A stretch of 34,119 nt of DNA from an uncultured bacterium (GTDB taxonomy: Bacteria > Patescibacteriota > Minisyncoccia > Phycocordibacterales > UBA9973), in NCBI GenBank assembly GCA_903907175.1, contig CAIVNB010000069.1, positions 1 to 34,119 of the forward strand. Reading direction: 5' to 3'. Position numbers and translations under genes: made by a program. Positions 32,333 to 34,119 of the stretch are shown one piece after another (position 1 is the first letter of the stretch; each line of letters opens with the position of its first letter). Under the pieces are notes generated by a model. It had not been told where the DNA came from and searched no databases. It worked only from the letters and a program-made list of their open reading frames with translations.

Positions 32333-33364
32333 TTATATACCAGTTTTAGGCAAAAAGCTAGAAGCACTTGAAACCGCATAGCTTTCAATCTTACTTTTCA
32401 GCTTCTTGGCGTTGCCGTGGCTTACTAGCCCAAGATAGGATTGTATTGTTTCTGGCTTACCTTTTCGCCTCTCTATACCCCTAAACATCCTCTGTTTTGT
32501 AATAGTCCTAACCACTCTATGATCGGGAAATAAAACCCAGCCCAGAAAGTCCACGCCCGAGGCAACTGTGCTTATAGATACTTTTTTCGGATGCAGGTGG
32601 AGATTGAGTTCATTTTCAAGAAAATCTTTTATCTTGGGCAACATATCTACAAGCGACTGCTTATCATCCGATAAAATCACAAAATCATCGGCATAGCGAA
32701 TATAGTATTTTGCCTTAATTTTATGCTTCATAAACTGGTCAAACTTATTCATATAAATGTTTATAAATAATTGTGAGGTAAGATTACCAAGCGGAAGACC
32801 TTTACCCTTTTCGGTAGAATAAAAACTGCTGATAATCTCGTAGAGCAAAGAAACAATGTCAGTGTCTGGTATATAACTCTTTATCATTTCAAGCATCACC
32901 CCTTGGTCAATTGAAGCGAAAAACTTTCTTATATCTCCTTTCAAAACCCAAGCCGTTCTCGTATGATTTTTTGATACTTTGTAGGCAAACTTTCTAAACC
33001 TATCTATTGCTTTGTGTGTTCCCTTATTTACTCTGCAAGAATAGGAGTCGGCAATAAATGTCCTATCAAAAAATGGATACAGCACTCGGTAAATAGCGTG
33101 ATGTAATAATCGGTCCCGAACTTTTGCTTTATGTATATCTCTGGGTTTGGGGTCTGAAATCTTAAATGCTTCATATTCAGAATGTTTGTATGTTTTATTC
33201 ACTAGGTCCTGGTGAAGTGAAATTATATTAGCCATCAGATTTCTCTCAAACTCCTGCACATCTTTGCGAGATTTTTTGCCAACCTTAAACTCTTCCCACG
33301 CAGAGAGCAAGTTGTCTAACCAAATGATATAGTCATAATTATGAACAAGTTGAATGCGGGACAT
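32333..33364 (-). CDS. Diversity-generating retroelement (DGR)-type reverse transcriptase
   Basis: ISDPKPRDIHKAKVRDRLLHHAIYRVLYPFFDRTFIADSYSCRVNKGTHKAIDRF, WVLKGDIRKFFASIDQ, KGLPLGNLTSQLFINIYMNKFDQF (DGR-type GNxxSQ motif), YYIRYADDFVILSDD (YADD), LHLHPKKVSISTVASGVDFLGWVLFPDHRVVR. Confidence 0.93.
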   Translation of the reverse strand: MSRIQLVHNYDYIIWLDNLLSAWEEFKVGKKSRKDVQEFERNLMANIISLHQDLVNKTYKHSEYEAFKISDPKPRDIHKAKVRDRLLHHAIYRVLYPFFDRTFIADSYSCRVNKGTHKAIDRFRKFAYKVSKNHTRTAWVLKGDIRKFFASIDQGVMLEMIKSYIPDTDIVSLLYEIISSFYSTEKGKGLPLGNLTSQLFINIYMNKFDQFMKHKIKAKYYIRYADDFVILSDDKQSLVDMLPKIKDFLENELNLHLHPKKVSISTVASGVDFLGWVLFPDHRVVRTITKQRMFRGIERRKGKPETIQSYLGLVSHGNAKKLKSKIESYAVSSASSFLPKTGI

Positions 33365-33760
33365 ATTATTTATTCTACCCCCCCCCCCCCGCTTTTGCCA
33401 CTACTGGCAAAAGCGAAAAGCTGTTATTTACAGTGGATTACTTTTTACGAAACTTTGCCAAAAATCCACAAATATACTCTAGGGCAAAAGATTGATACTT
33501 TGTTTGTTGAGGTAATAGAGGCAATCTCTATCGCCACCTTTTTATCTCGTGAAGAAAAACAACCGTGGGTCCGACTGGCAATCAGAAAGACAGATACTCT
33601 CAAGATACTTTTGATGGTTTTATGGGAAGCAAAATCTATTGATAATAAAAAGTATCTTGCTTTATCTGTAAAAGTAGAAGAAATAGGAAAGATGCTCGGG
33701 GGTTGGAGTGGACAGCTCGCAAAACAAAACTCTCCCGCAATAAAGACGAGAGAGAAATGA
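33341..33760 (+). CDS. avd: Avd-like four-helix-bundle protein (DGR accessory variability determinant family); start uncertain (ATG 33341 or TTG 33395)
   Basis: LLAKAKSCYLQWITFYETLPKIHKYTLGQKIDTLFVEVIEAISIATFLSREEKQPWVRLAIRKTDTLKILLMVLWEAKSIDNKKYLALSVKVEEIGKMLGGWSGQL: KYTLGxKID...IGxMLGGW pattern of bacterial Avd/four-helix proteins, beside a DGR RT. Confidence 0.82.
   Translation: MNKLNAGHIIYSTPPPPLLPLLAKAKSCYLQWITFYETLPKIHKYTLGQKIDTLFVEVIEAISIATFLSREEKQPWVRLAIRKTDTLKILLMVLWEAKSIDNKKYLALSVKVEEIGKMLGGWSGQLAKQNSPAIKTREK
33378..33390 (+). repeat. C13 homopolymer (G13 on the - strand) at the avd/RT 5' junction
   Basis: tattctaCCCCCCCCCCCCCgctttt. Confidence 0.9.
33390..33415. repeat. Perfect 11-bp hairpin adjoining the C13 tract
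   Basis: CGCTTTTGCCA (33390-33400) CTAC TGGCAAAAGCG (33405-33415). Confidence 0.85.
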
Positions 33761-33905
33761 AAAGAGTTGCCAAAGCGGAGTGCGGGATTGTTGGAGTTCC
33801 AGTTGTTGTCCAGCCAGTTCCAGTTCACCACAACCTTGCCACCGTTCTCATAGAGATACGGGACATTCAGGTTGCCGTTGCGGTTCTGCACGAAATGTAT
33901 GGGAT
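33761..33905 (-). repeat. DGR template repeat (TR), approximate limits
   Basis: On the - strand: CAGAACCGCAACGGCAACCTGAATGTCCCGTATCTCTATGAGAACGGTGGCAAGGTTGTGGTGAACTGGAACTGGCTGGACAACAACTGGAACTCCAACAATCCCGCACTCCGCTTTGGCAAC. One frame reads QNRNGNLNVPYLYENGGKVVVNWNWLDNNWNSNNPALRFGN with 11 AAC and 2 AAT codons, as expected for an unmutated TR. Confidence 0.75.
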
Positions 33906-34119
33906 TTCTTCTAGTTCCACTGCCCTTTGAATACTCTCGGAGCTGTATCGTATTCGGCATAGTAATGCCCTAAAACCCCATACCAAGTATATTCATTTTT
34001 TATGAAGTGCTACATACACCACTCTATTTGAAACCATAGTCGCAAATACTCTCAATGTATGGATACTGGTCTCGGTGGCAGAAAACCTTAATCTTCTACA
34101 TATTCACCTATCACCGATT

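Follow-up and report, generated by a model that had tools for sequence, protein, structure and literature searches.

A diversity-generating retroelement of Patescibacteria with an antisense avd gene and a candidate slippable repeat at the avd start

At the right end of a Patescibacteria contig, genes for a reverse transcriptase (RT) and an Avd-like protein are grouped with a template repeat (TR), avd lying between the other two on the opposite strand. The window, that is the whole stretch of DNA analysed (34,119 nucleotides), is an entire contig (G000:C69:1-34119), hence its right edge is an assembly end. The draft genome to which it belongs, assigned to Patescibacteria through its relatives, comprises 88 contigs with a total of 835 kb and is 92% complete. 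The coordinates of all features are collected in Table 1. A preliminary description had recognised a diversity-generating retroelement (DGR) from the proximity of an RT with the motifs GNLTSQ and YADD, an Avd-like protein and a TR, and profile searches agreed with it. The RT matched Pfam RVT_1 (E 3e-24) and PHROG_1423 (E 6e-109). The Avd protein scored above the cut-off of bAvd and matched phrog_3206, 'Avd protein of DGR' (E 6e-14); its match to NF033474, 'DGR protein Avd' (E 2e-15), nevertheless lay under the 80-bit cut-off of that profile. In a search of solved structures the RT resembled 8ub7, which we take to be the Bordetella phage bRT, far more than RTs of group II introns or retrons (8ub7, the best match, E 4e-46; top-scoring group II intron RT, E 9e-19). 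Its GNLTSQ motif is of the DGR type GxxxSQ, where group II introns have QGxxxSP. Placement outside the DGR clade had been named as a result that would speak against a DGR; besides having 8ub7 as its best match, the RT groups with phage DGR RTs in a tree built without group II intron or retron RTs. Judged from sequence comparison, the identity of the locus as a DGR is near certain.

Table 1. Features of the retroelement at the right end of the window
Feature	Position	Strand	Remarks
DGR reverse transcriptase	32333..33364	-	343 aa; GNLTSQ (within LPLGNLTSQ), YADD; RVT_1, PHROG_1423, 8ub7
avd, accessory variability determinant	33341..33760	+	bAvd, NF033474, phrog_3206; in frame through C13
C13 (G13 on RT strand) repeat	33378..33390		first avd codons and RT 5' leader; proposed slipped-strand switch
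Palindrome CGCTTTTGCC-ACTACT-GGCAAAAGCG	33391..33416		10-bp arms; 11 pairs with the inner C-G step
Terminator-like hairpin, TTTTGTTTT tail	33730..33754	-	directly 3' of TR, inside the last avd codons
TR core, 127 nt	33767..33893	-	homologous to the L035 VR
Structured leader RNA, ~225 nt, 5' of TR	33894..34119	-	covariation; model hit 33981-34116; helix partners down to ~33894

Relatives of the RT are present in 71 of 149 related genomes and also occur in named Nomura-, Yanofsky-, Campbell-, Falkow-, Vogel- and Moranii-bacteria. A degenerate-pattern scan found none in viral contigs, so that nothing points to a viral origin; the identity of phage RTs does not exceed about 40%.

The opposed orientation of avd, noted in the preliminary description, is real, yet it is no oddity of a single locus but the rule across this Patescibacteria RT clade. 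In the window the avd ATG overlaps the 5' end of the RT gene by 24 nt. Among about 95 loci examined for gene order, an antisense avd directly precedes the RT gene at every locus with an RT of ~46% identity or more and with the RT-upstream region on the contig. Where a TR/VR pair (VR, variable repeat) could be found at these inverted loci, TR lies on the far side of avd and VR before TR. In a quick tree, the 80 inverted rows, together with one row whose avd side is off the contig, form one RT clade with a support of 99. Four more distant Patescibacteria DGRs have the order VR-avd-TR-RT, all in the same direction, and in annotated phage DGRs such as FP_Lagaffe and ACA1 avd is in sense, upstream of the RT gene. 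The simplest reading would be that avd was inverted or relocated once, in the clade's ancestor. Further arrangements were seen in two related DGRs: in L089 the RT gene comes first, with TR and avd downstream in sense, and in L090 avd is antisense downstream of the RT gene. An inverted avd was not described in the literature searched; earlier mention is possible in the surveys of CPR DGRs (Paul 2017) or of cassette types (Wu 2018), and the cassette classes of a 2019 DGR survey were built on TR, VR and RT only. An annotation that expects a sense avd upstream of TR will misplace or miss the gene at inverted loci.

The start of avd carries a simple-sequence repeat, in the window a run of 13 C. Repeats were found there at 72 of 81 loci and were absent in nine. 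Usually the repeat is a run of 7-13 G (mode 9) on the RT strand, between the starts of avd and RT; other units occupy the same place at some loci, namely (GA)n in six, (GT)11 in L052 and (CTGA)8 in L009. Such sequences are rare elsewhere. C13 is the sole G/C run of at least 8 in the window, the draft genome holds three G/C runs of at least 9 in total, and within 545 kb of loci the avd/RT junction accounts for 61 of the 64 G/C runs of at least 8, for 6 of the 8 long dinucleotide arrays and for the only tetranucleotide array. With the conserved Pro-Lys motif of Avd as anchor, the tract lies mostly 23-30 codons ahead, and most repeat-less loci have an ATG 26-37 codons ahead. Sense-oriented Avds of Patescibacteria start with MAQYSHLPI at a similar distance, measured by eye. 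These distances agree, thus the repeat stands where the Avd N-terminus begins. The Avd profile starts right at the tract which, if translated, encodes PPP, (SL)n, (HT)n or (SVSQ)n.

Next to the tract an inverted repeat with a stem of at least 5 bp occurs at 28 of 69 loci (3.0 ± 1.9 expected). In the window this is a perfect palindrome of 26 nt that adjoins C13, and a compensatory change is found in L035, the closest relative (Ca. Nomurabacteria, 88% nucleotide identity over the shared stretch). Many relatives carry palindromes of different sequence, equally placed beside the tract.

The two other long tracts of the draft genome lie outside the DGR. A G/C10 tract (L114; G000:C48, 7023-7032) closely follows the start codon of a gene for a DpnI-family protein (PF06044, E 1e-8), a usual site for a phase-variable tract, and is a candidate for a second slippage switch in the same genome. 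The third, a G10 (L115; G000:C49, 23917-23926), has a PaaX/Cas2-like gene on one side and a small ORF without known family on the other.

How the tract bears on the avd reading frame was examined across the relatives. All 69 loci measured have, within 60 nt upstream, an ATG from which at least one phase reads into the tract without a stop. In Markov-shuffled sequences this was so at 40.7 ± 3.9 loci (maximum 51), and with boundaries shifted into the RT gene at 14-56. At 57 loci it holds for exactly one phase. The upstream ATG is often antisense to an RT His codon (CAT), and conservation of the RT may explain part of the excess. With one genome per species, frame states being compared between species, and with homopolymer lengths that can err by one in metagenome assemblies, the upstream ATG shares the frame of the Avd core at 24 of the 69 loci (35%) and is out of frame at 45. 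With C13, the window avd is in frame. The out-of-frame genes retain open frames of at least 120 codons. An in-frame share of about one third together with intact out-of-frame genes looks like a snapshot of a phase-variable gene, for decay would leave stops.

Start codons between the tract and the Pro-Lys motif were also counted, a few rows of this table (L025, L074, L077, L081) having taken a different short run as the repeat. No ATG, GTG or TTG is present in this interval at 27 of 71 loci, so that any expression of avd at these loci requires translation of the tract. The other 44 contain at least one such codon (ATG in 22), the window having two TTG, and at some loci, the window included, Avd could start behind the tract. 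From these comparisons we infer that avd is probably phase-variable through slipped-strand changes of the tract.

The tract also lies close to the RT gene, within its 5' leader at 50 of 69 loci. At 19 loci the RT has no ATG after the tract; most of these have an ATG upstream of it in some phase, and in most of the 19 the tract may belong to both avd and RT. A different role, as a cis element, has therefore to be weighed: the repeat could be a spacer in the RT promoter or part of a ribosome-binding region, its length tuning the expression of avd and RT like a rheostat while the frame stays unchanged. The frequent location in the RT leader, the adjoining inverted repeats and the purine-rich, ribosome-binding-site-like nature of a poly-G or GA run all suit this role. 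They are offset by the GT and CTGA arrays found at the same place, which do not resemble a ribosome-binding site, and by the loci without any start between tract and Avd core, where an expressed avd includes the tract. We therefore regard a cis element as unlikely, though it is the strongest competitor of a frame switch. Poly-G as the ribosome-binding site of the RT in particular is disfavoured, since GT and CTGA arrays replace it.

On the other side of avd, the preliminary description had placed TR within 33740-33960. Its core is indeed there, with limits fixed by alignment of the L035 VR (79% identical); the stretch up to 33960, however, is leader RNA and not repeat. Sixteen leaders with 67 supported pairs were aligned (A1), and a model (R1) built on the first 136 positions scored 152.7 bits against the window, with no second copy in the genome. 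Paired cells make up 93.7% with the leader pairs in register versus 36-47% with partners slid, a comparison that favours the structure since it was derived from the same sequences. Double changes are stronger evidence and were found at 37 pairs (21 ± 2.4 in shuffled alignments) and in 137 cells (44 ± 5.8), and the covariation score was 0.446 versus 0.234 when shuffled. The last long helix closes just before TR (GTATGGG/CCCATAC in the window, GCACGAGA/TCTCGTGC in L009). By eye, most aligned relatives have a -10-like box (TGNTATACT or TGNTAAAAT) about 11-14 nt before the leader, and the window promoter is predicted just past the contig end.

Searched against Rfam 15, the leader matched no family, the only hit being a chance-level match under the gathering score, and L035 and L036 matched none except tRNA. 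The leader model found matches in 42 of 149 genomes. Of the inverted loci scanned, about three quarters matched, including 16 that had themselves gone into the model. No match was obtained among the sense-oriented Patescibacteria or phage DGR loci scanned. Some leader RNAs have no RT or avd within ~2.5 kb (L119 in G115, L120, L122-L127, L129-L131); L119 has a TR/VR pair, yet its genome contains no RT above the cut-off. Such loci are possibly templates served in trans, or remnants. An avd-start repeat or a DGR 5' leader was likewise not described in the literature searched, outside of which lie Paul 2017 and Wu 2018.

Directly 3' of TR, all 79 of 79 loci carry a hairpin with a T-rich tail. From this hairpin to the tract, synonymous codons of the avd body vary at chance level, constraint being confined to the two ends. 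Taken together, the hairpin, the unconstrained avd body and the leader suggest that the TR RNA is separate and ends before antisense avd; it is probably a discrete transcript of ~400 nt. Alternatively, the TR transcript could read through antisense avd into the RT gene as in BPP-1, the antisense avd acting as a spacer RNA bound by RT-Avd. TR, antisense avd and RT do share one strand, and the spacer 3' of TR is essential in BPP-1 (PMC12875486). Read-through of this kind is nonetheless improbable here: the hairpin looks like a terminator, the conserved structured RNA sits 5' of TR, and the chance-level variation of synonymous codons led us to reject the antisense avd body as a functional spacer RNA.

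Programmed slippage of RNA polymerase or ribosome, by which a fixed share of Avd would be made at any tract length and no heritable switch would exist, appears slightly less probable still. It would account for the intact out-of-frame avd genes, and transcription can slip on long stretches of G or C. Against this, GA, GT and CTGA arrays at the same place suit slippage of DNA better, and tract length varies widely (7-13 for G).

A DGR also requires consideration of its VR and target gene. In the inverted clade, 69 TR/VR pairs were compared over 8077 aligned bases, with repeat ends trimmed because non-adenine mismatches of untrimmed pairs come mostly from over-extension. Of the 1168 mismatches, 1145 are at TR adenines; VR differs at 1145 of 2171 TR adenines versus 23 of 5906 other bases. 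By this measure the elements of the inverted clade are in use. In the window itself, the absence of a second TR core copy was correctly noted in the preliminary description, and neither a VR nor a target was found in the draft genome either. The VR had been guessed to lie to the right, and L035 leads to the same prediction. Its target gene encodes 198 aa, with the VR forming the 3' end; counted outward from the position equivalent to the window edge, the stop codon follows after 185 nt and the VR spans about 185-320 nt. Since L035 continues past this point, the contig end is the best explanation for the missing VR, and hypervariability of the VR could itself have broken the assembly there. That the window element is a remnant without target, as the lack of a VR in the draft genome might suggest, is very improbable, given that RT, avd, TR and leader are all intact and that a contig from a genome in 88 pieces stops 185 nt short of the stop codon of the relative's target.

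The target proteins themselves were viewed upstream of the VR at about 60 loci. They are mostly about 160-310 aa long, with very diverse N-termini before the VR domain, and a few share 'LNAIVKKLGGEEG..FLRGE'-like starts. The L035 target matched no Pfam family. About 75 nt past its VR stop is a long hairpin (L035:7138-7185), at the position where other DGRs carry an inverted repeat behind VR.

We propose the following working of the element. From a promoter just outside the contig, a discrete RNA of ~400 nt comprising leader, TR and hairpin would be transcribed, with the transcription units drawn as suggested by the sequence. RT and Avd would reverse-transcribe TR, inserting random bases opposite adenines, and the mutated cDNA would replace the VR of a target gene just beyond the contig end. 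The avd and RT genes start back to back, and the slippable tract separates the avd ATG from the Avd core. As repeat units are gained or lost, tract length presumably changing within a population, avd would move into or out of frame, so that at a given time only part of the population would make Avd and could diversify. In BPP-1, Avd is needed, and nonsense mutations in avd lower retrohoming to about 1e-9 (PMC12875486); a frame switch of avd should by analogy act as an on/off control of the present element. Since the one long conserved RNA structure lies 5' of TR, our guess is that recruitment, perhaps also priming, proceeds from the 5' leader in a retron-like topology.

To the model as a whole, that is a Patescibacteria-specific DGR clade with the order target (VR), leader RNA-TR-hairpin, antisense avd and RT, and with a slippable avd, we assign a probability of about two in three. 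The stricter version, in which a clade of single origin is gated by phase variation of avd and makes a discrete RNA whose 5' leader has replaced the BPP-1 3' spacer in its task, is in our judgement just on the probable side. The C13 tract, the leader RNA and the terminator-like hairpin were absent from the preliminary description and probably alter the likely working of the element; the repeat at the avd start and the structured leader with the hairpin outweigh in importance the features noted earlier.

The element suggests that these cells leave it to chance when one of their own genes is mutated. If true, a repeat switch on avd would be a simple and testable answer to the question of how DGR activity is timed, in a group enriched in DGRs (PMC8144416). 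It would join two classic routes to diversity, phase variation and mutagenic retrohoming, and would place the mutator itself under a random heritable switch. The leader RNA, a strongly covarying domain without Rfam family, marks DGR templates even with the RT off the contig and offers a second RNA architecture for asking how DGR cDNA synthesis is primed.

By all features testable, the element is a member of the DGR family, yet it is not a cassette of the BPP-1 type. Like Bordetella phage BPP-1 (mtd-avd-TR-brt), it has an RT and an Avd of the respective families, adenine-specific TR/VR differences in its clade and, as predicted from L035, a VR at the 3' end of the target gene. Recruitment of RT-Avd and priming of cDNA fall in BPP-1 to a spacer 3' of TR (PMC12875486), whereas the structured RNA here is 5' of TR and only a short terminator-like hairpin lies 3' of it. 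Unlike the BPP-1 avd, which is in sense and upstream of TR, avd in the window and in its clade relatives is antisense between TR and RT, and it has a repeat at its start.

In the msr-msd RNA of retrons, structured RNA lies 5' of the reverse-transcribed part, and the leader resembles this arrangement. The element departs from retrons in its DGR-type RT and in what is copied, a TR that has its homologous VR in a target gene; that the leader primes is a guess.

Another counterpart is DGR clade 2 of Roux et al. 2021, which is restricted to Patescibacteria/CPR, a group in which DGRs are enriched (PMC8144416). The present elements are likewise restricted to Patescibacteria and cellular, with targets without recognisable domains, and their RTs probably belong to the same clade; the text on clade 2 describes no avd orientation, repeat or leader RNA (PMC8144416).

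By its anatomy, finally, the element is a candidate phase-variable system. As in slipped-strand contingency loci, the repeat stands just behind the start, its unit types are interchangeable, it occurs far above chance, and both frame states are found, between species, with about one third of the snapshots in frame. A phase-variable cofactor of a mutator system was not found in the literature searched. Unlike in known phase-variable genes, what would be switched here is such a cofactor.
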